The notes beneath the pieces are model-generated. The model did not search any database, was not told the DNA's origin, and worked only from the letters and a program-made list of their open reading frames with translations. A stretch of 64,000 nt of DNA from Adhaeribacter arboris (GTDB lineage: Bacteria > Bacteroidota > Bacteroidia > Cytophagales > Hymenobacteraceae): NCBI RefSeq assembly GCF_003023845.1, contig NZ_PYFT01000001.1, positions 6,634,001 to 6,698,000 of the forward strand, read 5' to 3'. Positions 41,729-56,064 of the stretch are shown here, piece by piece. The translations under genes were made by a program, and so were the position numbers. How positions within the stretch are numbered: the first letter of the stretch is position 1; each line of letters starts with the position of its first letter.

Positions 41729-42115
41729 TCAGCCTCCGGGCGGTTGCATGTATGGTTGCCCATTCACAATAAGTATTTTCTCCTCGGGCAGCAGCAAATA
41801 ACCGTAATCATAACAGAACAGGTAAGTATGCCCCTTCTGGGTCCGGTACTGATGGGTGAAGTACCGCATATCAAATCCTTGCTGTACCAGAAAGTCTACC
41901 CGGGTCGTTGTCTTTCCCCAGGGACTTGCTTTCTTGAGAATGTTGCGGTTCTGGCGCAACGCGCGGTTTATTTCCTGGAGTAGCTGCTCGGCTCCATTCT
42001 TTCTCCGCTTTTGGTTATTGTCTTGCGAACGGCACTGGTCCGAGCAGTACTTCTTATCACTTCTTCCTTTGATAGCTTGCCCACATACCAGACAAGCGGC
42101 CGCTTTTGGTTCCAT
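41729..42115 (-). CDS. Zinc-ribbon (DUF2116-like) protein divergent from the recombinase
   Basis: 128 residues. N-terminal zinc finger with CLVCGQAIKGRSDKKYCSDQC (Cys pairs about 8-11 and 24-29), a linker of basic helix, then a small domain with DFLVQQGFDMRYFTHQYRTQ and CYDYGYLLLPEEKI. DUF2116-type proteins are common in Bacteroidota and their role is unknown. It is transcribed away from the recombinase, sharing a 110-bp region with a 21-bp inverted repeat. A DNA-binding or regulatory role is inference. Confidence 0.7.
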   Translation of the reverse strand: MEPKAAACLVCGQAIKGRSDKKYCSDQCRSQDNNQKRRKNGAEQLLQEINRALRQNRNILKKASPWGKTTTRVDFLVQQGFDMRYFTHQYRTQKGHTYLFCYDYGYLLLPEEKILIVNGQPYMQPPGG

Positions 42116-42121
42116 TATCTT

Positions 42122-42175
42122 TTAACCGATTAATAAACGTTTAGAAACGGATATAAACGTTTATTAATCGGTTAA
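42122..42175. promoter_or_regulatory. 21-bp perfect inverted repeat at the recombinase promoter
   Basis: Arms 42122-42142 (TTAACCGATTAATAAACGTTT) and 42155-42175 are exact reverse complements, separated by 12 bases. Each arm contains the self-palindrome AAACGTTT. The right arm ends 15 bases before the recombinase -7 box (42191), so it covers the expected -33 zone. Likely an operator or recombinase-binding site. Confidence 0.7.
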
Positions 42176-42225: not shown

Positions 42226-43668
42226 GTGGCTCTTTTTCCTACTTTGTATTTAAATCCTCTGGAACATCAGGGGAAAACCTTTATTAAGTTCTGGCATAAA
42301 CCCCAGCCTGCCGTGCGCCAGCGCTTACAAGCCGCGCCCTGGATTAAATACAGTCAGACGTATAAGTGCTTCGTTATGCCGCACACTCCTACGGCCATTG
42401 CGCAGACGTATAGCCATTTTGCCGGGGTAGCAACCGTGAGTACCCGCTACCTCTACCGGCCTAAACGCCTGCGGCCCAGCGAAGAAACAACTGTTCTGGC
42501 AGTTGTTCCTGCTGCCGAGCCGCTGGCCAAAGTAGCTGATTTAACGGTCGTTCGTTTAATTCCGCTGCTTCATCAAGGAAAAACCTGTATCCGGCTGAGT
42601 TACCCTTATCATCCGGAAATTACAAAGCGTCTGAAACAAAATCCCATTTGTCAGTGGCTGGCCGAGAGCCAATGTTTTGTGGTTAAAGTAAATCCGGAGC
42701 ACCTGCACCGGCTATTGGATGAACTGGCCGGAATAGCCCAGCTTTGGCTCTGTCAGACGCTGCAAGTAAAAGAAGTTTCTTTGCTGAAAAGGCTTTGGGA
42801 GCAAAGCTACCAGCAACCAGCTCTCTTTATTTCCTGTCCTTTGCCTTACCTGGAGCAGCTCTTTCTCTTAAACTATAGTCCCAACACCATCCGCACGTAT
42901 CATTCATTATTACTGCGGTTCCTGAACGGGCATGCCGCGAAGGGCTTGGAACAGATCAACTCTTTTACCGAACAACAGATTAATCAATATCACCGGGGTA
43001 TGGTGCAAAGCAAGCAGTACTCCTGTTCACTTATCAACCAAAGTATTAATGCCGTGAAATTTTACTACCACCGGGTAGTCGGCCGCCCGGAAGTAAACCT
43101 GAATCAGGTAGAACGGCCGGAAAAACCCGAGAAGTTGCCCGGTGTGCTCAGTAAAGCGGAAGTAGCCCAGATTCTGGCAGCGACCGATAATTTAAAACAT
43201 CGTTGTATGTTGCAGCTCTTGTACGCGGGAGGACTTCGGATTAGTGAAGTGATTCACTTGAAAATCACCGATGTACAATCCCAAAGGAATTTGTTGCTCA
43301 TTCGGGGAGGCAAGGGTAAGAAAGACCGTACCACCCTGCTTTCGCAAAAATTGTTACAAAGCCTAAGGGAGTATTACAAGGTGTACCGGCCCCAAATTTG
43401 GTTATTTGAAGGGCAGTTTGGCGGGCAGTACACGACCGATAGCCTCCGGCATGTTTTTAATGCCTGCGTGCAGAAAGCTGCCATTAAGACTAAAGCGACA
43501 CCGCACACCTTGCGGCATAGCTTTGCGACCCATTTACTCGAATCAGGCACCGATTTACGCTACATTCAAGCTTTGTTGGGGCACCGTAACAGCAAAACCA
43601 CGGAAATCTATACCCATATTACCACCCATGCGCTGGAAAAAATTCAGAGTCCGTTGGATAGTTTATAA
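42226..43668 (+). CDS. Tyrosine recombinase heading the cassette array
   Basis: 480 residues from a GTG (next Met is far inside). Two related N-terminal repeats (about 8-72 and 108-173), both with PLxHQGKTxI and CFV; then a SAM-like core-binding domain (about 205-290) and a catalytic domain (about 300-480). Catalytic residues: Arg338 in GGLRISE, Lys near 362, His427 and Arg430 in PHTLRHSF, His453 in LLGHRN, Tyr462 in EIYTHI; it ends SPLDSL, as IntI and many Xer-like proteins do. The IntI-specific insertion between the Lys and HxxR boxes is absent, so it is not a classical integron integrase. It reads toward the array. Confidence 0.9.
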   Translation: MALFPTLYLNPLEHQGKTFIKFWHKPQPAVRQRLQAAPWIKYSQTYKCFVMPHTPTAIAQTYSHFAGVATVSTRYLYRPKRLRPSEETTVLAVVPAAEPLAKVADLTVVRLIPLLHQGKTCIRLSYPYHPEITKRLKQNPICQWLAESQCFVVKVNPEHLHRLLDELAGIAQLWLCQTLQVKEVSLLKRLWEQSYQQPALFISCPLPYLEQLFLLNYSPNTIRTYHSLLLRFLNGHAAKGLEQINSFTEQQINQYHRGMVQSKQYSCSLINQSINAVKFYYHRVVGRPEVNLNQVERPEKPEKLPGVLSKAEVAQILAATDNLKHRCMLQLLYAGGLRISEVIHLKITDVQSQRNLLLIRGGKGKKDRTTLLSQKLLQSLREYYKVYRPQIWLFEGQFGGQYTTDSLRHVFNACVQKAAIKTKATPHTLRHSFATHLLESGTDLRYIQALLGHRNSKTTEIYTHITTHALEKIQSPLDSL

Positions 43669-43780
43669 ACTTTACTATATATTAGCTTCTGTATAATGGT
43701 ATTTAGTATGAAAATAGTAGTTCTTTTTCCAAAATACAGAAAATACCAGGTAAACAGGAAGATTATTCCTCCGTACATAG

Positions 43781-43821
43781 TGCTGATAACCGGAACAGTT
43801 CCGTATATCTGCTAGTTAGGC
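43781..43821 (+). other. attI-like insertion point of the array
   Basis: The first core site GTTAGGC (43815-43821) starts 147 bp after the recombinase stop. It has no RYYYAAC partner in an attC fold, only TGATAAC (43784-43790) and a short palindrome CGGAAC-A-GTTCCG (43791-43803). That asymmetry is what an attI rather than an attC would show. Confidence 0.55.
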
Positions 43822-44380
43822 GTAATAGGAAAAATTTGGGCTGGGAAGGAGTGGCTAAACAACTGAAATATAGCCATAAAAGCAGAAAATTAGGAGTTTC
43901 AACCCGTCTTTGACAGCTAGGTCAAAGAAGAAAAAACAGGAAAAAAGACCGGATTAAAACCGTTTTTAAGGAAGGTATTTTACCTGTTTTTGGTACTTGT
44001 TAGAATAACAATACCTGGTTGAAACGAATAAAAAATGGCTTTTATTGCCTGCTAAAAAAAAGTTTAGCCCCGTTTTTACCTCTTTTGGCCAGCCCTTTAT
44101 GGGTGTTTTATAAAAATAAAGGAGCGGGTGACTTCTCTTAGCCTCGCCTAAATGAAATCATCCCGCCTTTAGTTTTATTTCTTCATTTTTAGGAAAACGT
44201 TTGTTTCTCTTTAAAAAGCAGAGAAACCTAAAGAAGGGGAAAGCGGTAAATTTTTCCTACTATAAAGGGTAGTTCTTAAAAAATCAGCTACTTTACCTAA
44301 AAAAAGAACTACCCCGCCTAACTACACCTAAAAGACACCAAACCCCAGCCAATTGGACAAGGCGTCTTTTAGCCTTGTTC
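43815..44380 (+). mobile_element. Cassette 1: ORF-less, hairpin-rich (copy A)
   Basis: No plausible ORF. Hairpins at CTTTGAC/GTCAAAG (43908-43927), imperfect 44118-44131/44158-44170, GTTTCTCT/AGAGAAAC (44203-44227) and GGGTAGTTCTT/AAGAACTACCC (44267-44314), then attC. Its start GTTAGGCG and 3' CGCCTAAC match 8 of 8. A second copy lies at 52683. It may be a structured RNA, a promoter cassette or a terminator cassette. Confidence 0.75.
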
Positions 44381-44387
44381 GTTATGC
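44316..44387 (+). repeat. attC of cassette 1
   Basis: 72 bp: R'' GCCTAAC (44316-44322), stem ACCTAAAAGAC ... GTCTTTTAGCC, R' GTTATGC (44381-44387). Confidence 0.8.
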
Positions 44388-44415
44388 CCAATTATAAAAC
44401 ATTTATATACTCTTA

Positions 44416-45045
44416 ATGAAAACAGTTTATTTTTCGCTCATTATTCTACTTTTTTCTTCTCAATCGATTTTAGCTCAGAAAAGTAAACCATTAAATCCTA
44501 AAGGAATTTATTCCGAAATTAAGGTAGCTAAGCAGAATAAAATGATCCAGGAGCTTATTGATACTAAAACAAGTGCTAGCTCGATCGAAACAATATTCAA
44601 TAATATAAACCAGTATAATCCTCCAGTCTTGTATGTCTTTTCCCAAGCCTTGTTTGTTAACGGAGAATTACAAACAGGTATTGACTGGTATTTATTTGCT
44701 CAACTAAATGCTTTATATGATGCTAATCGGTGTTCTGATAAAACGGCAAGACAAGCAACAACTATTTTAGAATCTAAATTTAGGCCCGCTTATGAGGATT
44801 ATATTAAATCAAATAAACAGGCATACCTTGAAAGTATAGACAAAGTAGTTATGCTATTTAATAAAATCCCGCAGGACTATGATATAAGATGGATTAATCT
44901 TCATGGAATGGATGCAGTTACTACTTCACTAAGTGACGAAAAAGAAAATAAAAATGATTTAAGTTTACCTAAAGAGTCTTGGCCTGAAATAAAAGAAAAA
45001 ACAATTGGGCAATTTATTGAGGCAAATAGAAATAGTGTTAAATAA
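44416..45045 (+). CDS. Cassette 2: secreted protein, unknown
   Basis: 209 residues; signal peptide (TVYFSLIILLFSSQSILAQ, cleavage near 20). The mature part is mostly helical, with VLYVFSQALFVNGELQTGIDWYLFAQLNALYDANRC, shown here in parts, looking like Sel1/TPR-type repeats, and a Cys. No catalytic motif is recognised. The cassette starts at GTTATGCCC (44381), and the same nine bases recur inverted (GGGCATAAC) at its 3' end. Confidence 0.7.
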   Translation: MKTVYFSLIILLFSSQSILAQKSKPLNPKGIYSEIKVAKQNKMIQELIDTKTSASSIETIFNNINQYNPPVLYVFSQALFVNGELQTGIDWYLFAQLNALYDANRCSDKTARQATTILESKFRPAYEDYIKSNKQAYLESIDKVVMLFNKIPQDYDIRWINLHGMDAVTTSLSDEKENKNDLSLPKESWPEIKEKTIGQFIEANRNSVK

Positions 45046-45053
45046 ATAACTGG

Positions 45054-45119
45054 GCATAACACAATGTATAAAAAACCCTTGCTTCGCAGCAGGCTTTTCA
45101 TACACGCGGCCCGTTGGCA
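45054..45119 (+). repeat. attC of cassette 2
   Basis: 66 bp: GCATAAC ... GTTGGCA. Inner stem ATGTATAAAA / TTTTCATACA around CTTGCTTCGCAGCAGG. Related to the attC at 51638 and 56729. Confidence 0.85.
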
Positions 45120-45148
45120 GAAATTGAATAAGAAATTTTAAATACAAA

Positions 45149-45559
45149 ATGTATAAATTATATAGTACAGGCTTAATAGCACTGCTAATTACTTTTTGTT
45201 CCTGTGCGGAGCAAGGTTCATTGCAACATGATATTAAGCCTTTACTTTTTGGGAAATATGTAGATTATACTAAGAACAGAAAGTGCGAAATTGTTGAGAG
45301 ATCCCTCAACTTCAATAGTGATAGCACATTTAGCTTCCGCACCACTTGTCTAGTTGATACATCAAGGGTGACTTCGGCATTTCCAAAAAGATTCGAAGGA
45401 ACAGTAAAAAATTTAAATGATAGTACTATTATACTAAAGGTTGAGGATAAGATTTACGGTATATATAAGATTTTGTCCGATACAACATTAGAATTACAAT
45501 CTGAAAATACTTACAAACCTGTTTATACTAAGATGAAACATTACCTTGTGGCTGAATAA
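45149..45559 (+). CDS. Cassette 3: lipoprotein, unknown
   Basis: 136 residues. SPII signal with ITFCSC (Cys near 20). The mature part reads as a small beta protein with LNFNSDSTFSFRTTC and LNDSTIILKVEDKIYGIYKI, like lipocalin-like DUF domains, but I do not assign a family. Starts 36 bp after its core site and stops 42 bp before the attC. Cassette start GTTGGCAG matches its 3' CTGCCAAC. Confidence 0.7.
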   Translation: MYKLYSTGLIALLITFCSCAEQGSLQHDIKPLLFGKYVDYTKNRKCEIVERSLNFNSDSTFSFRTTCLVDTSRVTSAFPKRFEGTVKNLNDSTIILKVEDKIYGIYKILSDTTLELQSENTYKPVYTKMKHYLVAE

Positions 45560-45604
45560 AGAAGCAAAACCAACAAGAAGTGAATGTACAGGAAAATCAA
45601 CTCC

Positions 45605-45670
45605 TGCCAACAAAGCACATAAGTTATACTTCGGCTCCGCCTCGCCCACCTTATGTACAAACCGTTGGGG
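45605..45670 (+). repeat. attC of cassette 3
   Basis: 66 bp: TGCCAAC ... GTTGGGG. Stem ACATAAGTTATAC region pairs with CTTATGTAC; loop rich in CGGCTCCGCCTCG. Confidence 0.8.
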
Positions 45671-45742
45671 GAAATAAAAAACAAATTTTATGGAAAATAG
45701 ATGGTTCTTCCATCCTATATAATAACCATAAAAACCGTTGCA

Positions 45743-45961
45743 ATGATGAACAAAGGAAAAAAAACAACCGTGAATGTGTTCAAACACCTAGTACTTGTGC
45801 CACTTTTAACGACTTTTGTCTTTACGGCTTGTCAAGATAAAAAGGACGACCTAGTGCCAACCACCAAAACAAAGCCTGTTGATGAAATACGTGTAGAGGA
45901 AGAGATACCAAATACAGTAGTTGAAGAGGAAACTGTAATACCCACTGTAGTCGAAAAATAA
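45743..45961 (+). CDS. Cassette 4: small lipoprotein with acidic repeats
   Basis: 72 residues from ATGATG at 45743. SPII signal (LVPLLTTFVFTAC, Cys near 30). The mature part is a short acidic tail with repeats VEEEIPNTV and VEEETVIPTV. Directly after the TAA the same frame reads EISDVAVEK before the next stop, as if one more repeat unit had been cut off. Function unknown. Cassette start GTTGGGGG matches CCCCCAAC at its 3' end. Confidence 0.6.
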   Translation: MMNKGKKTTVNVFKHLVLVPLLTTFVFTACQDKKDDLVPTTKTKPVDEIRVEEEIPNTVVEEETVIPTVVEK

Positions 45962-46075
45962 GAGATATCAGATGTAGCAGTTGAAAAATAATGATTCTAA
46001 AAGGAATAAAGTAATTTCCAGAGCTTTTTTGAGTACCAAAATAAATACTACCTTATATAAATAAAATATTAACTC

Positions 46076-46128
46076 CCCCAACCATACCTAAAAACCACTT
46101 TGCACTTTTTAGCTAAGGAGCGTTGGGC
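46076..46128 (+). repeat. attC of cassette 4
   Basis: 53 bp, short type: CCCCAAC, stem CCTAAAAACC / GCACTTTTTAG, GTTGGGC at 46122-46128. Confidence 0.82.
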
Positions 46129-46570
46129 GTAATAGATTAAAAAATAAAATATTAGCTTTTAAATCATTTGAGTAGAATTTACCTGAGTTTTATTTGTATT
46201 AGCATAATGTTACTTTCATGTACTTCAAAGGTCGATTGTGAATACCTAGCAAATAGACTTTCTTCAGCAGAATGCAATATTATTGTTATTGAGGAGCCAA
46301 ATATAGGAAGAAGTTTCAGGCTTTGGGGTGTAAACCCTACTACTAAATACAGGGAGACTTATTATGATGAAGAAGCTTGGTACGTGTCTTTTGGTCATAA
46401 AATTGCCATTGGTGATACAGTAGTTAAAAATCCGGGAGAACTAAAGTTTTATATCCATAAAAAGGATACTGTCTTAGTTTATCCTTTTCAATGTGGTGAG
46501 AAAGTATACGAGTGAAATTACTACAGCCCAACCACGCCTAAAAACCACTCCGCGCTTTTTAGCCCAGAAC
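46122..46570 (+). mobile_element. Cassette 5 (identical to cassette 18)
   Basis: 449 bp unit repeated base-for-base at 54741-55189. Identity starts at the core site and ends inside the next core (GTTA, then TAT here versus GGC there), as expected of site-specific cassette insertion. Confidence 0.9.
46168..46515 (+). CDS. Cassette 5: lipoprotein, unknown
   Basis: 115 residues read from a TTG at 46168; the first ATG (46207) would leave only MLLSC, too short for a signal, so the TTG is preferred. SPII signal ISIMLLSC (Cys near 18), then VDCEYLANRLSSAECNIIV, two further Cys and a beta-rich end (YRETYYDEEAWYVSFGHKI). No family recognised. The same protein is encoded at 54787. Confidence 0.7.
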   Translation: MSRIYLSFICISIMLLSCTSKVDCEYLANRLSSAECNIIVIEEPNIGRSFRLWGVNPTTKYRETYYDEEAWYVSFGHKIAIGDTVVKNPGELKFYIHKKDTVLVYPFQCGEKVYE

Positions 46571-46577
46571 GTTATAT
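46526..46577 (+). repeat. attC of cassette 5
   Basis: 52 bp: GCCCAAC, stem GCCTAAAAACC / GCGCTTTTTAGCCC, GTTATAT. Same short type as the attC at 46076. Confidence 0.85.
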
Positions 46578-46585
46578 GCACCTTT

Positions 46586-47383
46586 ATGACGACAGAGCAA
46601 TACGACATAAAAACTAACATCGAAATCGGACAACAGATTTTCGAGAACTTACCCAACGACATTAGACCAGGTTGGGCTGGACTTGTTTTGTCTCGTTTTG
46701 ACCATTACATAAAAGATATTCCGACTTCTATTCTCGAACTTTATCCAATTATTGAAAACAAAGACCGTTGGAAAGAAGCACACGGACTGTTTACAAAAAT
46801 CCGAGTATTCGGACTTGAAAATAAAAATTATAAACCTGAACACTATTTAAGACTTGCAGAACTCGTTGCAAAAGTAACTTATAATGCTTCAGGACAACCC
46901 GCTCCATTTGACAGCGATAGTGGACACTATATTGCAAGTTCCGCCCTCAAAACGACCGAACATTTTGACGACAATCGACTTGAAGAAGAAGTTAAATCTG
47001 CAATCCTGTTATTTAGTCGCAACAAAAAATTCAAAGACAACTTAACAGCAGCTAAGGACTTTTTACTTTACAAAAAAATTGACGACATTCTATGGTTTGA
47101 TTGGGACCCAATCGGTGTTAATGACATGGCACCAAGAGACGAATACCAAGGCTACGTTCCTGAAATATTGGGACTTGTAAAAGCAAACGCAGGGAGACAA
47201 GAAATTGCAAAAAGACTTCACAAACTTGAAACAGAGAATATGGGAATGAGTGGAACAATTGAAAACTGTTTGACCATTGCAGACAAAATATTAGAAACAA
47301 CAGCCGAAAGAAAAGCTGAATATAACAGCACCTTGCCAAAAGCGGGGCGTTCGTGGTGGCAGAAACTTTTCGGCTCCGAATAA
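46586..47383 (+). CDS. Cassette 6: DUF1871-like protein
   Basis: 265 residues from the ATG at 46586, nine bases after the core; the frame is open further upstream, but that part lies in the attC. Soluble, no signal. N-terminal helical domain (TTEQYDIKTNIEIGQQIFEN), and a C-terminal stretch LWFDWDPIGVND ... RDEYQGYVPEILGL ... EIAKRL with the WDPIG and DEY marks of DUF1871-like proteins. Ends RSWWQKLFGSE. Its R'' partner is not found, so this cassette may no longer excise. Confidence 0.68.
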   Translation: MTTEQYDIKTNIEIGQQIFENLPNDIRPGWAGLVLSRFDHYIKDIPTSILELYPIIENKDRWKEAHGLFTKIRVFGLENKNYKPEHYLRLAELVAKVTYNASGQPAPFDSDSGHYIASSALKTTEHFDDNRLEEEVKSAILLFSRNKKFKDNLTAAKDFLLYKKIDDILWFDWDPIGVNDMAPRDEYQGYVPEILGLVKANAGRQEIAKRLHKLETENMGMSGTIENCLTIADKILETTAERKAEYNSTLPKAGRSWWQKLFGSE

Positions 47384-47395
47384 ACATTAGTATTA

Positions 47396-47452
47396 GCTTG
47401 ACAGGTTTGTGCTTCGAAAGCCCCGCCTTCGGCAAGCTGCAAAACGTTACCT
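47396..47452 (+). repeat. Degenerate attC between cassettes 6 and 7
   Basis: R' GTTACCT (47446) is good, but no GCATATAAC-like R'' partner for cassette 6 exists. GCTTGAC at 47396 is a poor substitute. A partial stem TGCTT.../AAGCTGCAAAAC remains. Confidence 0.5.
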
Positions 47453-47464
47453 GCAAGGCATAGT

Positions 47465-48037
47465 ATGAAAAATAGCTTCGGAAACATTTTTTCAATTTTG
47501 ACATGCTTGCTTCTGTTAAGTGCGGCGACAGAAAGCTTTGCATGCACCTGCGCTGGTAAGGACAAGCTAACAACAGAAAATGGATATGCCTCTGTAAATG
47601 TTGTTGTAAAAGGAACAGTCATAAGCGTTTCCGACTACAATTATTATGACACAGCAGGACTTTCACTTACAGGCTTAAAGTTCGACCCGAAATTGTATAC
47701 CTACATGATTAGGAAATATAAAGCCTATAGAATTGCTATTACCAACAATTTCAAGCCAGAATTATCACTTTCCGATACATTAACTGTTATTACTGGACAA
47801 GGGGGAGGCGACTGCGGATTTGAATTTGAAATTGGGAAAGAATACATCGTCTATAGTGATAGATGGACAGAAAGAGAAATTGTAGAATCAATAAGGAAGA
47901 GACGTACTAAAAGAAGTTTAAAAGAAGTTGCTCGTGAAAATGTGTTTTACACGGACATTTGCAGTTTGACTCAAGAAGCAAATGCAACAGAACTTAAAAA
48001 ATTAGAAAGTATAAAATTAAAAAAGCCCAGCAGGTAA
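47465..48037 (+). CDS. Cassette 7: TIMP/netrin-like secreted protein
   Basis: 190 residues. Signal peptide (about 1-26) ends at ESFACTCAG, so the mature protein begins with Cys-x-Cys, the N-terminal signature of tissue-inhibitor-of-metalloprotease-like (NTR) proteins. NVVVKGTVISVSDYNYYD, LTVITGQGGGDCGFEFEIGKEYIVY and a later Cys fit the netrin-type OB fold. Bacterial members are common in Bacteroidota, role unknown. Cassette start GTTACCTGC matches its 3' GCAGGTAAC over nine bases. Confidence 0.75.
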   Translation: MKNSFGNIFSILTCLLLLSAATESFACTCAGKDKLTTENGYASVNVVVKGTVISVSDYNYYDTAGLSLTGLKFDPKLYTYMIRKYKAYRIAITNNFKPELSLSDTLTVITGQGGGDCGFEFEIGKEYIVYSDRWTEREIVESIRKRRTKRSLKEVARENVFYTDICSLTQEANATELKKLESIKLKKPSR

Positions 48038-48098
48038 CACTTTATAAATGCCAGCTTCGGCCGACTGCCTCGCCGCCGTTTATACTAGTCCGTTAGTG
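48030..48098 (+). repeat. attC of cassette 7
   Basis: 69 bp: GCAGGTAAC ... GTTAGTG, stem CTTTATAAATG... / CGTTTATACTAG, loop with CTTCGGCCGACTGCCTCG. Confidence 0.85.
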
Positions 48099-48139
48099 GC
48101 AATTCATTCGTGACATCAAAAACATTTTAAAATAATATT

Positions 48140-48232
48140 ATGCAAGCTTCAGAAACGCCAAGAATTCCAAGAGTAGTCATAATCACCTTAGTTGTTGTCG
48201 TGGTGATATTATGTTATTTACTCTTTAGATAA
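48140..48232 (+). CDS. Cassette 8, gene a: 30-residue membrane peptide
   Basis: 30-codon ORF starting ATG CAA GCT. Residues 1-11 are polar (QASETPRIPR), residues 12-29 form one hydrophobic helix (VVIITLVVVVVILCYLLF), last residue Arg. The stop is two bases before the ATG of the next gene, so the two are coupled. It resembles single-pass small membrane proteins, but coding status is unproven. Confidence 0.45.
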   Translation: MQASETPRIPRVVIITLVVVVVILCYLLFR

Positions 48233-48234
48233 GT

Positions 48235-48828
48235 ATGAAAAGAGAAACCATCGTACTGCTTCTCACAATTCTAATTGTGATTTTAGGAGTTGGGACGCTA
48301 TTCAAATACAATATTCTAACTTTTCAAAAGCTGGCTACTAATAAAGATTTAATCGGCGTATTCAAGGACATCATAACAATTATAGCGCTAATTGTTGGTG
48401 CCTTGCTTTCTTACTTTAGATTTTTCAGCGGGAGAACATTTTCAACGAAAGCAGATATTGAACTTGAAGCTGTCTTGATTGAAACTCCAACGAAGTCCAT
48501 AATGCACGCTTTGACAGTTTCAATCATCAATAAAGGTAGTCTTACAATTTGGGAGCCGGAGGCTATATTATCTGTTCAAGAATACACAGAGAATGGTGCT
48601 CAAGAAGAAGTTGTATATGAACAGTTTTTACGGACATCCTACTTCAGAAAAGGAGAAAAGGGAGACGTTGTTATTGACGCAGGAGAAAAAGCATATTTTA
48701 CTTTTTTGCAAGAGTTCAACCTTTCGACTTGGGCTGTGACATATACAGCAGAGATTAGAAATGATAGAGGACGAATATGGCAAAAAGCTATAACGGTGGA
48801 AAACAAAGCAAAAAGTGCAAAGTCATAA
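48235..48828 (+). CDS. Cassette 8, gene b: membrane protein, unknown
   Basis: 197 residues. Two membrane helices: about 5-24 (TIVLLLTILIVILGVGTLF) and 44-65 (DIITIIALIVGALLSYF). The rest (about 75-195) is soluble, beta-rich and probably immunoglobulin-like (VSIINKGSLTIWEPEA). It may form a complex with the peptide encoded just upstream. No family recognised. Cassette start GTTAGTGGCA matches TGCCACTAAC at the 3' end (10 bases). Confidence 0.65.
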   Translation: MKRETIVLLLTILIVILGVGTLFKYNILTFQKLATNKDLIGVFKDIITIIALIVGALLSYFRFFSGRTFSTKADIELEAVLIETPTKSIMHALTVSIINKGSLTIWEPEAILSVQEYTENGAQEEVVYEQFLRTSYFRKGEKGDVVIDAGEKAYFTFLQEFNLSTWAVTYTAEIRNDRGRIWQKAITVENKAKSAKS

Positions 48829-48849
48829 AACACTTTGGCAAAGAAAACT

Positions 48850-48983
48850 GCCACTAACAGTGTGTTTATAAAATTGTGGCTGGACGTCACGCATTTGACT
48901 ATAAATCGCTATTTTGGTTTTGTGGTTAATTGAACCTGACGTTTTTCAATTGCCACAACTTCATAAACACTTTAACGTTAGCG
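48850..48983 (+). repeat. attC of cassette 8 (long type)
   Basis: 134 bp: GCCACTAAC ... GTTAGCG. Outer stem AGTGTGTTTATAAAATTGTGGC / GCCACAACTTCATAAACACT (given in parts) and a terminal structure of about 80 bases, similar in size to Vibrio repeats. Near-identical to the attC at 50301. Confidence 0.85.
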
Positions 48984-48995
48984 ATAATTAATAAA

Positions 48996-49706
48996 ATGAA
49001 ATTGCTCTATCAATTTATTTTCTTGTTGATGCTTTATGGTTGCAGCCAACCACATCAAGAAAAAAGAGATGTATCCAATGATAAAAAATCAGCGGTTGGA
49101 TTTTCTGGACTCACTGAATTTGCGGTTGATAGCTCTAGCACTTTTGACAAGAATAGAAATACACAAATTTCAATAGAAATACCTGTTTCTGGAATTCAAG
49201 AATTAGACGAACAAATAAAAGCTGAGATAGATAAACAGAAAGTTGAGTTCATCAAAAGCATAGACGAGCTGATTAAAGAAGACCGCGATATTTTAACTAC
49301 GGTTAATAGCGACTTTTCCGTTGACCTCATTTCTGCTTACAATGACAAGAATCTAATAAGTTACTGTTTTATCATTTCCTATTATCATGGAGGAGCGGCT
49401 CATCCTATGACAATGTATAACTCTTTTAACTTTGACAAAAAAGAAAAGAAACTGATAAGCTTTACCGATTATTTTAATGTGAAAACTCAAAATGATAGTA
49501 TATGGTTTTTGACAATTATTAACAAAGCAATTGACATAGATAATGTAAAGGCTACATCATTAAATGAGATTGATTTTAATATAGAGAAAGATACTATCTC
49601 TTTCAATTTTGATGACTATGAAATAGCCAGTTATGCAGAAGGAATCATTCAAGGCAGAATTAAGAAGTCGGTGTTATCAGAAAAAATTAAAAATAACTAT
49701 CGCTAA
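48996..49706 (+). CDS. Cassette 9: DUF3298/RsiV-like lipoprotein
   Basis: 236 residues from the ATG at 48996, 19 bp after the core. SPII signal MLYGC. A DUF4163-type region (STFDKNRNTQISIEIPVSG, then ELDEQIKAEIDK) is followed by a DUF3298-like C-terminal domain: YYHGGAAHPMTMYNSFNFD, LISFTDYF and FNFDDYEIASYAEG. In other bacteria this fold binds lysozyme or lies in peptidoglycan deacetylases (PdaC). Role here unknown, possibly envelope protection. Cassette start GTTAGCGATA matches TATCGCTAAC (10 bases). Confidence 0.75.
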   Translation: MKLLYQFIFLLMLYGCSQPHQEKRDVSNDKKSAVGFSGLTEFAVDSSSTFDKNRNTQISIEIPVSGIQELDEQIKAEIDKQKVEFIKSIDELIKEDRDILTTVNSDFSVDLISAYNDKNLISYCFIISYYHGGAAHPMTMYNSFNFDKKEKKLISFTDYFNVKTQNDSIWFLTIINKAIDIDNVKATSLNEIDFNIEKDTISFNFDDYEIASYAEGIIQGRIKKSVLSEKIKNNYR

Positions 49707-49768
49707 CAAAACCTAAACGTCAGCCTTCGGCCGATGGCCTCGTCCGTCGTTTAGCAGAGCCGTTAGCT
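49701..49768 (+). repeat. attC of cassette 9
   Basis: 68 bp: CGCTAAC, stem CTAAACGTCAGC... / CGTCGTTTAGCAG, GTTAGCT. Very similar stem to the attC at 52622. Confidence 0.88.
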
Positions 49769-49778
49769 GCCATTTTTT

Positions 49779-50297
49779 ATGCCTCTAAAAACATTTACTT
49801 TTCTATTTCTTTTAACCCTGACAGCCAGTTGCAATAGTTTTGAAAATAAATTCTATAAAAAAATCCAAGAAGGCGAAATAAATTCGATTAAGAGTAAAAA
49901 ATCGGTAATGTTTGACCTCAGTTCTTTAACAGATTTTGACTGGGATAGTGTTCTCATTATACATGGGAATGAAAGTGTCCCTGTAAATGCTGAACAAATA
50001 GAAGTTGACTTAAAAAGGACAACAACTGATTTGCCAACACTAACAGACCGTTTTTATTTTCTACAGAAAGACAAGAAAGTCATTGTCAAGGAAATTGAAA
50101 GTATGATTTTTCATGACCCAGACGTTAATATTGAGTTTTGCTTAATTGATACGACGAATTATAGACCTTGGCTTTCACGGGACGAGTGTAAATTCAGGTT
50201 AATGTCAAATAGTAAAAGAGTAAGTCACGGAGGAATATTTCTTTTCCCACCTTGTAGAACTTGGGTGACGGAGAAAAGTTTGAAAGTATTCGAGTAA
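49779..50297 (+). CDS. Cassette 10: lipoprotein, unknown
   Basis: 172 residues. SPII signal LTASC (Cys near 18). Short mature protein with FDLSSLTDFDWDSVLIIHGN, a Cys at the CLIDTT stretch and a final HGGIFLFPPCRTWVTEKSL. No known family. ATG starts 17 bases after the core. Cassette start GTTAGCTGCC matches GGCAGCTAAC over ten bases. Confidence 0.7.
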   Translation: MPLKTFTFLFLLTLTASCNSFENKFYKKIQEGEINSIKSKKSVMFDLSSLTDFDWDSVLIIHGNESVPVNAEQIEVDLKRTTTDLPTLTDRFYFLQKDKKVIVKEIESMIFHDPDVNIEFCLIDTTNYRPWLSRDECKFRLMSNSKRVSHGGIFLFPPCRTWVTEKSLKVFE

Positions 50298-50300
50298 AAC

Positions 50301-50435
50301 GGCAGCTAACAGTGTGTTTATAAAATTGTGGCGGGACGTTAGGCATTCGACTATAAATCGCTATTTTGCTTTTGTGGTTAATTGAAACTGACGTTTTTCA
50401 AATGCCACAACTTCATAAACACTTTAACGTTAGAC
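50301..50435 (+). repeat. attC of cassette 10 (long type)
   Basis: 135 bp: GGCAGCTAAC ... GTTAGAC. Same long stem and terminal structure as at 48850, with a handful of substitutions. Confidence 0.85.
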
Positions 50436-50447
50436 GAAAATCACAAT

Positions 50448-51014
50448 ATGAAATATTTGTTAACATGTTTCATTATTATAGCAATTCAGAGCTGTATATC
50501 GGTTAGTCTTGGCAATAGGTCTCGCTGGCAGAATATAAAAGAGCAGGATAGTAGGACTGCCCAACAAAAGAAAATGCCTATTGACAGAAGGCCTAATGTA
50601 TGTGTCAGTTTAATAAACAATCAGAGGAACTTGGTGTTACCATTCTTTTTTATCGATATAGATAGAAAGAATTATTATGTTCAATTTGATATTGAAACCT
50701 ACAATAATGACTTTGCGGTTTTGGACTCAATCAATTATGAAATTAAAAGCCAAGAAGGCACCGTGCTTTATAGAGGTACTGGTCACCCTAAAGATAAAAG
50801 AATTGATATAATTGAGGAAAGCAAGTACGCCTACCAAGCTTCTGTATCTACAGACTCTGATTTAGAATTTGACAAGAAAATACGGGAGGACTTGTTGATA
50901 CAGTTTATCCTGCATTTAAGGGATAATGAGGGCAAACCCATTCTCGAAAAATATCTACTGCCGCTAAAAGGCGAAAAACCCAAATGGTTTAGAATAGGCT
51001 CTATTTTAGGATAA
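50448..51014 (+). CDS. Cassette 11: lipoprotein, unknown
   Basis: 188 residues from the ATG at 50448, 19 bp after the core; the frame extends upstream into the attC, which is unlikely to be translated. SPII signal IAIQSC. Mature part with LPFFFIDIDRKNYYVQFDI and EIKSQEGTVLYRGTGHPK, a beta-rich protein of unknown family. Cassette start GTTAGAC matches GTCTAAC at its 3' end. Confidence 0.68.
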   Translation: MKYLLTCFIIIAIQSCISVSLGNRSRWQNIKEQDSRTAQQKKMPIDRRPNVCVSLINNQRNLVLPFFFIDIDRKNYYVQFDIETYNNDFAVLDSINYEIKSQEGTVLYRGTGHPKDKRIDIIEESKYAYQASVSTDSDLEFDKKIREDLLIQFILHLRDNEGKPILEKYLLPLKGEKPKWFRIGSILG

Positions 51015-51022
51015 AAATCATT

Positions 51023-51091
51023 GTCTAACATTGTGGAAACACCATGCTTCGGCCAACGGCCTCGCACACCGTTTCCACGAGACCGTTATAT
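51023..51091 (+). repeat. attC of cassette 11
   Basis: 69 bp: GTCTAAC, stem TTGTGGAAACACC / GTTTCCACGAG, GTTATAT. Confidence 0.85.
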
Positions 51092-51113
51092 GCCATTTAA
51101 AAAAATATAAATC

Positions 51114-51632
51114 GTGAAGAACCAATATCTACAATTAGTCAATTATACCATCATTGTAATATTGTTTTCTTGCCAATCTAAGTCGATTCCCTCAAAACTT
51201 ATTCTAAAGAGAGACAACAAGACTTCTCTCTATGCATACTTTGACGAAAAAGGCAACAAAGTTTTGGGCAACTACTTTGCTGCTTATACCGACACCATTA
51301 CAGAATATGGAATTGTTTCTGACTCTGGCTTCGTTCTAATCGATAAAACAGGGAAACATATCTATAAAATTTACCCATTTGACAATGGTCCTGATTATAC
51401 TAGTGAAGGGATATATAGAATTATAAAAGAAGGGAAAATTGGGTACGTAGATTCAGTAACCTCAAAAGTTTTAATTGAACCTAAGTTCGGCTGTGCATAT
51501 CCTTTCGAGAACGGTAAAGCGAAGGTAAGTCTTAATTGTAGAACGGTAAAAGCATTTCCTGGAGATGAGCATTCAACCTGGGAAAGCGAAGAATGGTTTT
51601 ACGTGGATAAGACAGGTAAAATTGTAGAATAA
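51114..51632 (+). CDS. Cassette 12: WG-repeat-like lipoprotein
   Basis: 172 residues from a GTG at 51114. SPII signal VILFSC. Mature part with repeating YAYFDEKGNKVLGNYFAAY, FVLIDKTGKHIY, KIGYVDSVTSKVLIEPKF and FYVDKTGKIVE: the beta-hairpin rhythm of WG/KWG repeats, which occur in Bacteroidota surface proteins. Three or four units are present. Cassette start GTTATATGC matches GCATATAAC. Confidence 0.72.
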   Translation: MKNQYLQLVNYTIIVILFSCQSKSIPSKLILKRDNKTSLYAYFDEKGNKVLGNYFAAYTDTITEYGIVSDSGFVLIDKTGKHIYKIYPFDNGPDYTSEGIYRIIKEGKIGYVDSVTSKVLIEPKFGCAYPFENGKAKVSLNCRTVKAFPGDEHSTWESEEWFYVDKTGKIVE

Positions 51633-51637
51633 AAACA

Positions 51638-51703
51638 GCATATAACACTGTATATGAAAAACCCTTGCTCCGCTGCACGCTTTTCATATACTAACCGTTG
51701 TGG
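51638..51703 (+). repeat. attC of cassette 12
   Basis: 66 bp: GCATATAAC, stem TGTATATGAAAA / TTTTCATATACTA, GTTGTGG. Confidence 0.88.
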
Positions 51704-51712
51704 TACATTAAA

Positions 51713-52144
51713 ATGACAGAAGAACAAAAATATTTACCTTCCGAAATCATAAATAAGTCAACTTTAAACAGTCACGAATATGGCTGGAAAAGAAAAGATT
51801 TTAAAGAAGTTGTAGACTACGCTGTAAAAGCTGGACTTGGAGTAGTAGGTGGACAAGTTCAGTTTATGTTTCCTGATGGAACGTGTGAACTGTACTGGCA
51901 CAAGTATGATACGAAAGAAAAACTAGCAGGTGAAAGTTGGTTAAGTTACTGTGAAAGAACTAAACAGGAATGTCTTGAGCAGTTTGAAGCTCTACCTAAT
52001 AACCTAAGGTTAATAGAAGAAGGAATAGAAAAATTTAGGTTCTTAAGAGAGAAATCTGAACAAGGAGTAGAACTTGAAAACTACTTGATATTCATTCTTT
52101 ACTTTGATAACTCTGAAACAGAGATAGCTAAAAAGGAAAAATAA
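51713..52144 (+). CDS. Cassette 13: hypothetical soluble protein
   Basis: 143 residues from the ATG at 51713; the GTG at 51698 lies inside the core site. No signal peptide. Features: HEYGWKRKDFKEVVDYAVKA, GQVQFMFPDGTCELYWHKYD, GESWLSYCERTKQECLEQF. The mixed alpha-beta, acidic protein resembles small polyimmunity-type or integron-cassette hypothetical proteins, but I cannot assign a family. Cassette start GTTGTGGTA matches TACCACAAC. Confidence 0.65.
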   Translation: MTEEQKYLPSEIINKSTLNSHEYGWKRKDFKEVVDYAVKAGLGVVGGQVQFMFPDGTCELYWHKYDTKEKLAGESWLSYCERTKQECLEQFEALPNNLRLIEEGIEKFRFLREKSEQGVELENYLIFILYFDNSETEIAKKEK

Positions 52145-52149
52145 CGATA

Positions 52150-52203
52150 CCACAACAACACCTTTACGGTAGCTACGCCACCGCAAAGCCCAGAACGTTG
52201 TGC
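52150..52203 (+). repeat. attC of cassette 13
   Basis: 54 bp, short type: CCACAAC, stem CTTTACGGTAGC... / CCGCAAAG, GTTGTGC. Confidence 0.78.
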
Positions 52204-52223
52204 GGCATTAAAAACAAGAGAAA

Positions 52224-52616
52224 GTGAATAAAATTTATAATATTTTTCTGGATAACATAAAAATTGGAACAACTCAGTTTGAAAAGGCAGATGCTCCAAT
52301 GGGAATTGTATTCGGACTTATTGACTTTATAGACTCTAAATTTGGATATGATTTCATTAAAAGTTATTGCCTTAAAAACCAAATTGATATAGTTGCAGAT
52401 TATCCTGAGAATAAACTGATTTCAACAACTTCGATTAAAGGATTAAAGGTTACAAATACTAATGGTGTTGAAATTAAAGGTTCAGGGAATCAAATAGATG
52501 GAATGGATAGCGAAGGATTTGAAATTATAATTGAAGGAATCTCTTATCCATTTTATGGTGAAGAATTTTCTAATCATGTAAAGGAAGAAAAAAACAGGTA
52601 TAAAAATAAAAAATAA
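52224..52616 (+). CDS. Cassette 14: hypothetical soluble protein
   Basis: 130 residues from a GTG at 52224 with AAGAGAAA upstream. N-terminal half IFLDNIKIGTTQFEKADAPMG and VFGLIDFIDSKFGYDFIKSY; C-terminal half with FEIIIEGISYPFYGEEF. No signal and no known family. The length and lone-gene layout are like many integron cassette proteins. Cassette start GTTGTGCG matches CGCACAAC. Confidence 0.62.
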   Translation: MNKIYNIFLDNIKIGTTQFEKADAPMGIVFGLIDFIDSKFGYDFIKSYCLKNQIDIVADYPENKLISTTSIKGLKVTNTNGVEIKGSGNQIDGMDSEGFEIIIEGISYPFYGEEFSNHVKEEKNRYKNKK

Positions 52617-52621
52617 CGCAC

Positions 52622-52689
52622 GCACAACAAAAACTAAACGTCAGCCTTCGGCCGACGGCCTCGCCCGTCGTTTAGCAGAGACGTTAAGG
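52622..52689 (+). repeat. attC of cassette 14
   Basis: 68 bp: GCACAAC, stem CTAAACGTCAGC / CGTCGTTTAGCAG, GTTAAGG. Confidence 0.85.
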
Positions 52690-53273
52690 CGTAATAGGAA
52701 AAATTTGGGCTGGGAAGGAGTGGCTAAACAACTGAAATATAGCCATAAAAGCAAAAAATTAGGAGTTTCAACCCGTCTTTGACAGCTAGGTCAAAGAAGA
52801 AAAAACAGGAAAAAAGACCGGATTAAAACCGTTTTTAAAGACCGGATTAAAACCGTTTTTAAGGAAGGTATTTTACCTGTTTTTGGTACTTGTTAAAATA
52901 ACAATACCTGGTTGAAACGAATAAAAAATGGCTTTTATTGCCTGCTAAAAAAAAGTTTAGCCCCGTTTTTACCTCTTTTGGCCAGCCCTTTATGGGTGTT
53001 TTATAAAAATAAAGGAGCGGGTGACTTCTCTTAGCCTCGCCTAAATGAAATCATCCCGCCTTTAGTTTTATTTATTCATTTTTAGGAAAACGTTTGTTTC
53101 TCTTTAAAAAGCAGAGAAACCTAAAGAAGGGGAAAGCGGTAAATTTTTCCTACTATAAAGGGTAGTTCTTAAAAAATCAGCTACTTTACCTAAAAAAAGA
53201 ACTACCCCGCCTAACTACACCTAAAAGACACCAAACCCCAGCCAATTGGACAAGGCGTCTTTTAGCCTTGTTC
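52683..53273 (+). mobile_element. Cassette 15: ORF-less, hairpin-rich (copy B of cassette 1)
   Basis: Same as 43815-44380 except a 24-bp tandem duplication (52815-52838, 52839-52862), one extra A in the core (GTTAAGG) and about three substitutions. All four hairpins persist. Its 3' GCCTAAC therefore fits cassette 1's start better than its own. Confidence 0.8.
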
Positions 53274-53280
53274 GTTGTGT
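53209..53280 (+). repeat. attC of cassette 15
   Basis: 72 bp, identical to the attC at 44316 up to the core, which is GTTGTGT here. Confidence 0.82.
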
Positions 53281-53293
53281 GTCATTTTGAAGA

Positions 53294-53833
53294 ATGGAAA
53301 TAATTCATAAATATCTATCACCTGATGACCTCAATCTCATTCAGAAGTTAGTAGGTGAAAAAATTGACCTTCTATATTGCAAAGAGCTTTATGTAGATGT
53401 TAGTTCTACTATCATTGAATCTCACCATTTCTCCTTGAGCTGTAATAAAAGCTACATAAACTTTCAGAATCATGAAAAAGGGAATGAAGATTATAGTTAC
53501 TATGAATTTAGCATAACTGAATCAGATACTCCATTAAGAATCAAGAGAGAAGAATCTGGGGCAATGCGGGGAGGTTCGCATGTGCGCTTGCCTGCAAGTA
53601 GGATAATCAGAATCGACTTGTTTGAGGACAAGGCCGAAGAGGAATGGAATAGTAAAGGAAGAGAGTTAATAACTGTTAAATATGATTCTGCCTTCGTCTT
53701 CCACCTATCGAATGGAGCAAAGTTTCTACTTGGAGTTTCAGAATCAATAACTGAGTTCACTCAGTTCATCTGGGATGGACAAGAGTTAATTGATAGGCTA
53801 GAAGGCTTAATAAAAAGAAAAGAGTGGAAATAA
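53294..53833 (+). CDS. Cassette 16: hypothetical soluble protein
   Basis: 179 residues from an ATG at 53294. N-terminal helix IIHKYLSPDDLNLIQKLVGE, then strands and SCNKSYINFQNHEKGNED, and SESITEFTQFIWDGQELID near the end. No signal peptide, no recognised family. Stop is 7 bp before the attC. Cassette start GTTGTGTG matches CACACAAC. Confidence 0.65.
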   Translation: MEIIHKYLSPDDLNLIQKLVGEKIDLLYCKELYVDVSSTIIESHHFSLSCNKSYINFQNHEKGNEDYSYYEFSITESDTPLRIKREESGAMRGGSHVRLPASRIIRIDLFEDKAEEEWNSKGRELITVKYDSAFVFHLSNGAKFLLGVSESITEFTQFIWDGQELIDRLEGLIKRKEWK

Positions 53834-53840
53834 AACCGTC

Positions 53841-53907
53841 ACACAACAACGTGTAAACGCCAACATCGGCCAATGGCCTCGCCGCCGTTTACACAAGTCC
53901 GTTGGGC
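53841..53907 (+). repeat. attC of cassette 16
   Basis: 67 bp: ACACAAC, stem CGTGTAAACGCC / CCGTTTACACAAG, GTTGGGC. Loop CATCGGCCAATGGCCTCG. Confidence 0.85.
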
Positions 53908-53943
53908 ACAATGTGAAATGATAAAAAAAGCTGAAGAATTTTG

Positions 53944-53951
53944 TATATTTG
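53944..53951 (+). promoter_or_regulatory. Promoter box directly before cassette 17 gene
   Basis: TATATTTG fits TAnnTTTG and ends three bases before the GTG at 53955, so the transcript would be nearly leaderless. No clear -33 TTTG at the usual distance. Confidence 0.5.
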
Positions 53952-53954
53952 GTA

Positions 53955-54482
53955 GTGAACAAATCAACAGAATATCTTCAGGACTTTGAAGTTGACAAGC
54001 TGACAAATTCCCTGGAAAATAGAATAACCAAAGACAGCTTTCCAACAGAGATAACTTTCCTGACTAAGAACGACTTAAAAACCATTACTAAGAAGAATGG
54101 CTGGGCTTTCAACTGGAAAGCAGAATTTACTTTAAATGACAGGGAAGTTTACAAACTAACCATTGTAAATAACCCGACCATCATTCAAGGACTGGTAAGC
54201 TTGACAATAAAACCCGACCATGTTTTCCTAAACTTACTGGAAAGTGCCCCTTTTAACATCGGACAAAATAAAGTATATGCTGGTGTTCCAGGCAATTTAG
54301 TTGCTTTTGCCTGCAAACTTTCCTTCGGAAGAGGCGGAGACGGCTTTGTTTCCTTTCAGGCTAAAACCAAACTTATCGACCATTACGTTAAAACATTAGG
54401 AGCCCTGCATGCGGGCGGTCATCTAATGGTAATCGATGCGCTTGCTGCACAGAAATTAATTGACAAATATTTTAAATCTTAA
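53955..54482 (+). CDS. Cassette 17, gene a: GNAT-like acetyltransferase, possible toxin
   Basis: 175 residues from the GTG at 53955. The C-terminal half looks like a GNAT fold: VYAGVPGNLVAFACKLSFG (acetyl-CoA loop region), GFVSFQAKTKLIDHYVKTLGA, and AAQKLIDKYF. The N-terminal half (LTKNDLKTITKKNGWAFNWK) is unassigned. The next gene, 4 bases on, encodes a 58-residue helical protein, as in GNAT toxin or modifier modules. Own -7 box just upstream. Toxin role is inference. Confidence 0.6.
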   Translation: MNKSTEYLQDFEVDKLTNSLENRITKDSFPTEITFLTKNDLKTITKKNGWAFNWKAEFTLNDREVYKLTIVNNPTIIQGLVSLTIKPDHVFLNLLESAPFNIGQNKVYAGVPGNLVAFACKLSFGRGGDGFVSFQAKTKLIDHYVKTLGALHAGGHLMVIDALAAQKLIDKYFKS

Positions 54483-54486
54483 GACT

Positions 54487-54663
54487 ATGGGACTAATAAG
54501 AGAACCGGATGATATTAACTTAAATATTCAAAGTAAGCCTTTGACTCGGGAAGAAGAAGAAAGGTTAAGCCAATTCATTAAAGAGCGGAAACAGGAAATA
54601 GAAAAAAAGAAACACTTTGCCCAACAAAAGCTTTATGGCAGCCGGGCTGCACGGCGGAATTAA
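54487..54663 (+). CDS. Cassette 17, gene b: small partner (antitoxin-like)
   Basis: 58 residues from the ATG at 54487. Reads GLIREPDDINLNIQSKPLT, then a helix EEERLSQFIKERKQEIEKKK and a basic end GSRAARRN. Similar small proteins with a (P/K)PLT-EE pattern follow GNAT-like genes in other bacteria. Four bases separate it from gene a, indicating coupling. Probable partner or antidote. Confidence 0.55.
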   Translation: MGLIREPDDINLNIQSKPLTREEEERLSQFIKERKQEIEKKKHFAQQKLYGSRAARRN

Positions 54664-54689
54664 AGCTTATCTTTTCTACTTAGCAATTT

Positions 54690-54747
54690 TGTATTGACAC
54701 TAATCTCAAGTAAATTCCCGGCCGACCACAAAGCCTAACCGTTGGGC
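54690..54747 (+). repeat. Degenerate attC between cassettes 17 and 18
   Basis: R' GTTGGGC (54741) is intact, but no GCCCAAC-type R'' partner for cassette 17 exists; only AAGCCTAACC precedes the core. Confidence 0.45.
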
Positions 54748-55189
54748 GTAATAGATTAAAAAATAAAATATTAGCTTTTAAATCATTTGAGTAGAATTTA
54801 CCTGAGTTTTATTTGTATTAGCATAATGTTACTTTCATGTACTTCAAAGGTCGATTGTGAATACCTAGCAAATAGACTTTCTTCAGCAGAATGCAATATT
54901 ATTGTTATTGAGGAGCCAAATATAGGAAGAAGTTTCAGGCTTTGGGGTGTAAACCCTACTACTAAATACAGGGAGACTTATTATGATGAAGAAGCTTGGT
55001 ACGTGTCTTTTGGTCATAAAATTGCCATTGGTGATACAGTAGTTAAAAATCCGGGAGAACTAAAGTTTTATATCCATAAAAAGGATACTGTCTTAGTTTA
55101 TCCTTTTCAATGTGGTGAGAAAGTATACGAGTGAAATTACTACAGCCCAACCACGCCTAAAAACCACTCCGCGCTTTTTAGCCCAGAAC
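54741..55189 (+). mobile_element. Cassette 18 (identical to cassette 5)
   Basis: Exact 449-bp copy of 46122-46570, next to a different upstream sequence and a different following core (GTTAGGC). Confidence 0.9.
54787..55134 (+). CDS. Cassette 18: lipoprotein, second copy
   Basis: Same 115-residue TTG-start lipoprotein as at 46168, with no substitution. SPII signal ISIMLLSC. The identity, including non-coding ends, points to recent duplication or repeated capture. See 46168 for details. Confidence 0.7.
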   Translation: MSRIYLSFICISIMLLSCTSKVDCEYLANRLSSAECNIIVIEEPNIGRSFRLWGVNPTTKYRETYYDEEAWYVSFGHKIAIGDTVVKNPGELKFYIHKKDTVLVYPFQCGEKVYE

Positions 55190-55196
55190 GTTAGGC
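55145..55196 (+). repeat. attC of cassette 18
   Basis: 52 bp, as at 46526, but ending GTTAGGC. Confidence 0.85.
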
Positions 55197-55209
55197 ACAA
55201 TTGTAAATA

Positions 55210-55887: not shown

Positions 55888-55898
55888 AAAACAACAGT

Positions 55899-55966
55899 GC
55901 ATAACAAGGTATAAAAGTCAGCTTCGGCCGACGGCCTTGCCAACCGTTTATACGAGGGCGTTATAT
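55899..55966 (+). repeat. attC of cassette 19
   Basis: 68 bp: GCATAAC, stem GGTATAAAAGTCAGC / CCGTTTATACGAG, GTTATAT. Confidence 0.82.
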
Positions 55967-56029
55967 GCCATTTTCAATGAAAGTGCTTCAGGATAGTACC
56001 TATTTCTGATTAAACTTCTTTCAAGGCGG

Positions 56030-56060
56030 TTTCACTTTAGTGCAACTTTTTCTATCTTTG
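56030..56060 (+). promoter_or_regulatory. Promoter of the cassette 20 toxin-antitoxin pair
   Basis: TTTC (56030-56033), 19 bases, then TATCTTTG (56053-56060), close to the TTTG-N19-TAnnTTTG consensus. The -7 box ends four bases before the GTG start, again nearly leaderless. Confidence 0.6.
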
Positions 56061-56064
56061 CTTT

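Follow-up and report, generated by a model that had tools for sequence, protein, structure and literature searches.

The gene at positions 42226 to 43668 of the window, by which we mean the whole 64,000-nucleotide stretch of Adhaeribacter arboris DNA that was analysed, appears to encode the recombinase of an integron-like cassette-capture platform, in which HARP-like N-terminal domains probably supply the recognition of folded DNA. We put the probability of this reading at roughly 85%. Cassette capture is well supported by the sequences described below, while catalysis by the recombinase, bottom-strand chemistry and the role of the HARP-like domains are what we infer from them. The gene and the domains of its product are as follows.

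42226-43668, + strand, integron-like tyrosine recombinase gene (open reading frame of 480 aa, GTG start)
42241-42441, + strand, N-terminal HARP-like domain, copy 1 (residues 6-72)
42544-42750, + strand, N-terminal HARP-like domain, copy 2 (residues 107-175)
42832-43095, + strand, core-binding SAM-like domain (residues 203-290; Pfam PF13495 and PF02899)
43132-43665, + strand, catalytic domain (residues 303-480; Pfam PF00589 at 5e-42; structure matches to 2a3v and 5hxy)

Within the full recombinase, Pfam assigned residues 210-288 to the core-binding domain and 307-466 to the catalytic domain, and gave no match before residue 200. Alignment placed the catalytic set at R338, K363, H427, R430, H453 and Y462; an earlier reading of this DNA from sequence only had named the same residues except for the lysine, which it put one position too early at K362. 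The same reading was correct in giving SPLDSL as the C-terminus, an SPLD end that alignment also found in IntI, and in stating that the catalytic region lacks the IntI insertion, a segment of ∼50 residues between the Lys box and HxxR. The AlphaFold model of the full protein had a mean pLDDT of 86, and a structural search with it returned XerA (5hxy, Z 24.1) as the best match and IntI (2a3v) at Z 22.4. The top NCBIfam score was that of NF040815, at 208 bits under a cut-off of 220. TIGR02249 scored 201.4 bits, below its curated cut-off of 265, and aligned to the protein as two stretches only, which flank the missing insertion.

The enzyme could be an ordinary but divergent IntI that lost the insertion and gained N-terminal domains. 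We consider this quite unlikely. The common SPLD terminus and the TIGR02249 score speak for such an origin, and in both trees that we built IntI and the recombinase family are joined to the exclusion of Xer and archaeal XerA (100/98), with thin sampling outside. However, that score falls short of the cut-off, and the 12 IntI rows of a 69-row tree formed one clade (100/100) with no member of the recombinase family inside it; in a 65-row tree with further outgroups IntI was again a separate clade (100/99). The recombinase thus has the position outside IntI on which the sequence-only reading had staked its claim. The attC type and the gene orientation are also unlike those of IntI loci in the same phylum. 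Membership in IntI was rejected on the position outside the 100/100 clade, the absence of the insertion and the low TIGR02249 score.

Two copies of a small N-terminal domain had been proposed at about residues 8-72 and 108-173, and alignment, a single profile and a common predicted fold all agree with this. The alignment of copy 1 with copy 2 scored 90, compared with a mean of 23 (sd 4.5) for shuffled sequences, and none of 2000 shuffles reached 90. A single profile found both copies (residues 8-69, E 7e-25; residues 109-171, E 6e-24), and in the AlphaFold model both have the order b-b-a-b-b-a-b over residues 6-72 and 107-175. Profile searching also agreed that the domain is absent from IntI. 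Among 41 N-domain copies of the family, Pfam HARP (PF07443) matched six, with a best value of 5.2e-5, and DUF5710 matched seven; the first window copy that was scanned gave no Pfam match of its own, and the HARP match of the window protein rests on its relatives' copies. When a profile of the N-domain copies was compared with the PDB, the one chain under E 1 was the HARP domain of SMARCAL1 (4o66, E 0.0056). Since the full-length structural search was silent on the N-domains, copy 2 was folded separately (pLDDT 94.5). Foldseek with this model ranked 4o66 second, a weak match (E 0.13, probability 0.85), and VIA re-alignment of copy 2 with HARP was weak and partial (Z 4.1, 49 residues, 2.2 Å). 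On the VIA list CASTOR1 (Z 7.0) and XPB (Z 5.8) both stood above HARP, and we prefer HARP because of the sequence profile rather than the fold list. The domain therefore resembles HARP by sequence profile and, weakly, by predicted fold, and we call it HARP-like, not HARP.

Folded attC sites are rich in junctions of the kinds that HARP binds. By analogy, we hypothesize that the HARP-like domain helps to recognise folded attC, taking the part that the insertion plays in IntI. The guess of the sequence-only reading that the extra domain might recognise folded single strands fits the HARP-like match. Human HARP/SMARCAL1 binds to forks, to Holliday junctions and to junctions of single with double strands, and does not stably bind plain single or double strands; it carries one or two HARP domains, depending on the lineage (PMC4035279). 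The N-domain may not be strictly required, because a few recombinases in which none was detected (L063, L091) also have nearby sites.

The region upstream of the recombinase gene contains two further features.

41729-42115, - strand, divergent gene for a small treble-clef (DUF2116-like) protein (Pfam DUF2116 at E 6e-6, just short of the cut-off)
42122-42175, no strand assigned, palindrome (22-nt arms, both perfect) separating the divergent gene from the integrase gene (from upstream-sequence comparison)

By eye, homologous loci have a similar Cys-rich divergent reading frame at the same place. Comparison of upstream regions showed that many homologues carry long palindromes in the same position but of quite different sequence, and the palindrome is possibly a fast-changing operator. 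This bears on a second use for the N-terminal domains, to which we assign a substantial minority chance: they may be unconnected with folded attC and instead bind the attI arms or the upstream palindrome, for arm-binding or for autoregulation. Many mobile-element integrases have N-terminal arm-binding domains (PMC8138268), and a large palindrome does precede the gene in many relatives. Against this, the sequence matches of the N-domain are to HARP and DUF5710, HARP proteins favour junctions and forks over plain duplex (PMC4035279), and the sequence of the palindrome is not conserved. Recognition of folded DNA is the role that we favour for these domains.

Scans for terminators and consensus sigma-70-type promoters gave results at chance level, with a consensus that does not cover Bacteroidota promoters. 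The statement that the gene reads toward the array held: the boundary G of the first cassette is at 43815, 147 nt past the stop codon, and read-through transcription from the recombinase gene into the cassettes is possible. The attI site, the array and those cassettes with copies elsewhere are listed here.

43768-43817, + strand, attI CCTCCGTACATAGTGCTGATAACCGGAACAGTTCCGTATATCTGCTAGTT, containing an inverted repeat; relatives share the site up to TAGTT and diverge beyond it
43816-57300, + strand, cassette array with 20 recognisable attC; mostly single-gene cassettes, in the same direction as the integrase
43816-44381, + strand, cassette 1 (566 bp, no evident ORF; five genome copies)
44382-45113, + strand, cassette 2 (100% identical copy at L123:12952-13683)
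46123-46571, + strand, cassette 5 (identical to cassette 18, 54742-55190)
51698-52197, + strand, cassette 13 (100% identical copies at L123:5229-5728, right behind the third attI described below, and in L126)

The attI site lies ∼100-150 bp past the recombinase stop codon. About 50 bp ending in TAGTT are kept in loci of Pontibacter, Rufibacter and Botryobacter, and similarity stops where unrelated first cassettes start, which is what an attI should look like. As expected of an integron platform, the site adjoins the integrase gene; it is conserved in relatives and occurs twice more in the genome. Every cassette begins with GTTR and a variable stretch (GTTRnnn), and the cassette's own attC opens at its 5′ end with the reverse complement of that start, usually over 8-10 nt; this complementarity is the signature of a formerly circular cassette. 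Chains of such complementary cassette ends linked 10 cassettes in the array, compared with 0-1 in shuffled sequence. The tandem cassettes with attC, the complementary outer boxes and the foldable bottom strand are likewise those of an integron platform. Cassette 20 (56065-56701) contains, by eye, two genes resembling a RelE/HigB-type toxin and an XRE antitoxin. Such a pair is a common array-stabilising cassette.

The attC sites of the array are listed below.

44315-44388, - strand, attC 1
45053-45120, - strand, attC 2
45604-45671, - strand, attC 3
46075-46129, - strand, attC 4
46525-46578, - strand, attC 5
47319-47453, - strand, attC 6, long type
48031-48099, - strand, attC 7
48851-48984, - strand, attC 8, long type
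49700-49769, - strand, attC 9
50303-50436, - strand, attC 10, long type
51022-51092, - strand, attC 11
51639-51704, - strand, attC 12
52149-52204, - strand, attC 13
52621-52690, - strand, attC 14
53208-53281, - strand, attC 15
53840-53908, - strand, attC 16
54618-54748, - strand, attC 17, long type
55144-55197, - strand, attC 18
55898-55967, - strand, attC 19
56728-56793, - strand, attC 20

In an alignment of 45 short attC sites from the window and from Hymenobacteraceae relatives, 12 of 13 predicted stem pairs change on both sides with pairing kept. A chance array of palindromes was ruled out on this covariation and on the 10 linked cassettes. The bottom strand is predicted to be more stable than the top strand for all 20 attC sites of the window and for 68 of 72 sites in the short and long alignments together. 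At one stem position, between covarying pairs, there is a G-T wobble (36/39 short and 26/27 long attC), which becomes a C-A mismatch when the top strand folds; the wobble may therefore serve as a strand mark. The outer arms of each attC pair only within their own cassette.

It is unlikely that the attC sites are recombined as plain double-stranded palindromes without folding, in the fashion of Xer or Cre. The attI does resemble a double-stranded site with an inverted repeat, and the core of the enzyme is similar to XerA. However, the stem sequences vary while their pairing is kept, the outer arms are specific to a cassette, and one strand conserves a non-Watson-Crick G-T pair; together we take these as signs of selection on a folded strand. 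Recombination of folded attC thus remains the preferred reading.

Copies of the cassettes elsewhere in the genome indicate that they move as units. Cassette 1 occurs in five copies with exact borders between G and TT and with unrelated flanks; cassettes 1, 2, 5 and 13 all recur with exact borders, and the flank comparison covers cassette 1. A second attI, at C1:2836674 (L122, G000:C1:2830000-2845000), has cassette 1 in first place and an adjoining IS-type transposase gene. A third, at C1:125187 (L123, G000:C1:120000-138000), is followed by cassette 13 of the window at 100% identity. No integrase was detected at either array. Both keep attI and a palindrome-like upstream segment without the gene, and may therefore depend on the enzyme of the window. 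Short-type attC sites number 76 in the genome, in 24 clusters, and the search for recombinases of this type gave one intact enzyme; this enzyme thus probably acts in trans on all three attI sites, and the cassette copies suggest that it has probably done so recently. A paralogue with a single N-domain and two internal stops (G000:C1:6723295-6724326, - strand; L002, L061) lies ∼25 kb right of the window end.

Relatives of the recombinase at E up to 1e-40 were found in 96 of 296 Bacteroidota genomes. Full-length relatives with two N-domains occur in Pontibacter, Rufibacter, Botryobacter, Nafulsella and Cesiribacter. Most of the relatives examined have one copy of the domain, and two copies are also present in L035 and L056. 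Since L056 has two copies and its sister L045 one, with two again in L035, the doubling arose more than once. In Pontibacter kalidii the same two-N-domain recombinase, with several attC cassettes downstream, is located at 20-28 kb of plasmid NZ_CP111080.1 (L111), possibly a mobile integron of the same type. This 74-kb plasmid carries conjugation-type (tra) genes and heavy-metal efflux genes.

We also examined whether attC sites accompany these relatives. The short-site model (R1) was built from sites of the window and of Hymenobacteraceae only, and it found attC downstream of single-domain relatives in genomes outside its building set. With the long-site model (R2) in the regions around relatives, 121 of 122 matches, at 30 loci, lay downstream on the strand expected for arrays that run in the same direction as the gene. 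Arrays were present at 28 of the 32 loci whose recombinase has an N-domain; the four loci without sites are L085, L094, L093, which is at a contig end, and L061, the pseudogene of the present genome. Among genomes that have a relative, 49 of 53 carried long-type sites; among those with no detected recombinase, 36 of 95 did (p 2e-11). Because R2 includes sites found with R1, these linkage counts are independent only in part, and the strand agreement is the stronger evidence. The co-directional layout is the rule for the family, and the recombinase of the window is not a single oddity: its layout, missing insertion and N-domain are common to a phylum-wide family.

This linkage also bears on a bystander role for the recombinase, as an Xer-like or phage-type enzyme, with the cassettes moved now or formerly by IntI or another enzyme, which we regard as highly improbable. 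The genome does contain XerC/D-like proteins and an IntI-type pseudogene (G000:C1:1659408-1660301, - strand; L127), which scores 297 bits, over the TIGR02249 cut-off, and some genomes carry attC sites without a detected recombinase. However, this IntI copy has one internal TAG, and the attC models found no match in the 9 kb around it. The recombinase family adjoins an array in 30 loci, with spacing and attI conserved in close relatives; on the array linkage and the conserved attI the Xer version of this explanation was dropped. The models also fail to match the attC of Bacteroidota IntI loci, with one exception (L130) among eight IntI regions. At that locus (G005:C1:1202000-1220000) attC of the R2 type adjoin a true IntI, and their strand is the one reading toward the gene, which hints at mixed arrays. 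Bona fide IntI is present in Bacteroidota: in 22 of 61 genomes a protein scores above the TIGR02249 cut-off. Three loci with clear cassette chains (L131, L132, L134) were read for direction, and in each of them IntI is divergent, with the array on its upstream side. Going by the loci compared, Bacteroidota thus have two kinds of integrase, which differ also in the type of their sites and in their layout.

We propose that circular cassettes insert at attI (43768-43817), downstream of the gene, by recombination with their attC, and that inserted cassettes would build an array reading in the direction of the recombinase. The attC substrate would probably be the folded bottom strand, as in classical integrons, with its orientation seemingly marked by the stem G-T wobble rather than by the protruding bases that the IntI extra domain reads. 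One or two N-terminal HARP-like domains would probably provide folded-DNA recognition to an enzyme without that extra domain, and a single intact copy of the recombinase would serve at least three attI sites in the genome.

IntI is defined by its additional domain, both in the literature and in the standard software for calling integrases, and this domain has been described as necessary for integron recombination (PMC9668308, PMC2426708, PMC8138268). It has further been called essential to integron function, with incomplete conservation in the integron-like subgroup (PMC8138268). The only complete integron that IntegronFinder 2.0 reported from Bacteroidetes proper was in Salinibacter ruber (PMC9024848), and reverse orientation alone is already known from Spirochaetota (PMC9668308). 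To judge by its sequences, the present system works in an integron-like manner yet fails the test that defines IntI. Our search of open-access PMC papers found no description of the recombinase family. We rate as evenly balanced the broader proposal of a second, Bacteroidota-wide kind of integron, which would recombine folded sites without the "essential" IntI domain by means of one or two junction-reading HARP-like domains, and which would have been overlooked because surveys define integrons by the IntI domain. If the family does run real integrons, the gap in this phylum would be partly an artefact of the search, and a major bacterial phylum would hold a cassette pool of its own, part of it on a plasmid that carries conjugation genes. 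The family would also offer a natural experiment on how an enzyme learns to read folded DNA, whether through an insertion within the protein or through extra domains at its N-terminus.

In SMARCAL1, as in the recombinase, one small domain, or two side by side, borders a DNA-processing enzyme at its N-terminal end. HARP is fused there to an SNF2 motor and the HARP-like domain here to a recombinase; the similarity is weak and the fold match partial. XerA and NF040815, the top structural match and the top NCBIfam score, share with the present enzyme a core-binding and a catalytic domain without the insertion. It differs from them in its score below the cut-off (208 versus 220), its N-terminal domains and its linked cassette array. 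The integrons of Spirochaetota have an integrase reported to be reverse-oriented relative to that of ordinary integrons (PMC9668308), but they are set apart by their description as IntI, i.e. with the specific domain. Classical integrons, such as class 1 and the Vibrio superintegron with their IntI, have in common with the present system an attI, tandem single-gene cassettes, attC hairpins with complementary ends, a bottom-strand bias and arrays of mostly unknown genes. In contrast, the recombinase here lies outside the IntI clade, lacks the IntI insertion and has HARP-like N-domains, and its gene is co-directional with the array, with attI at its 3′ end and attC marked by a G-T wobble.
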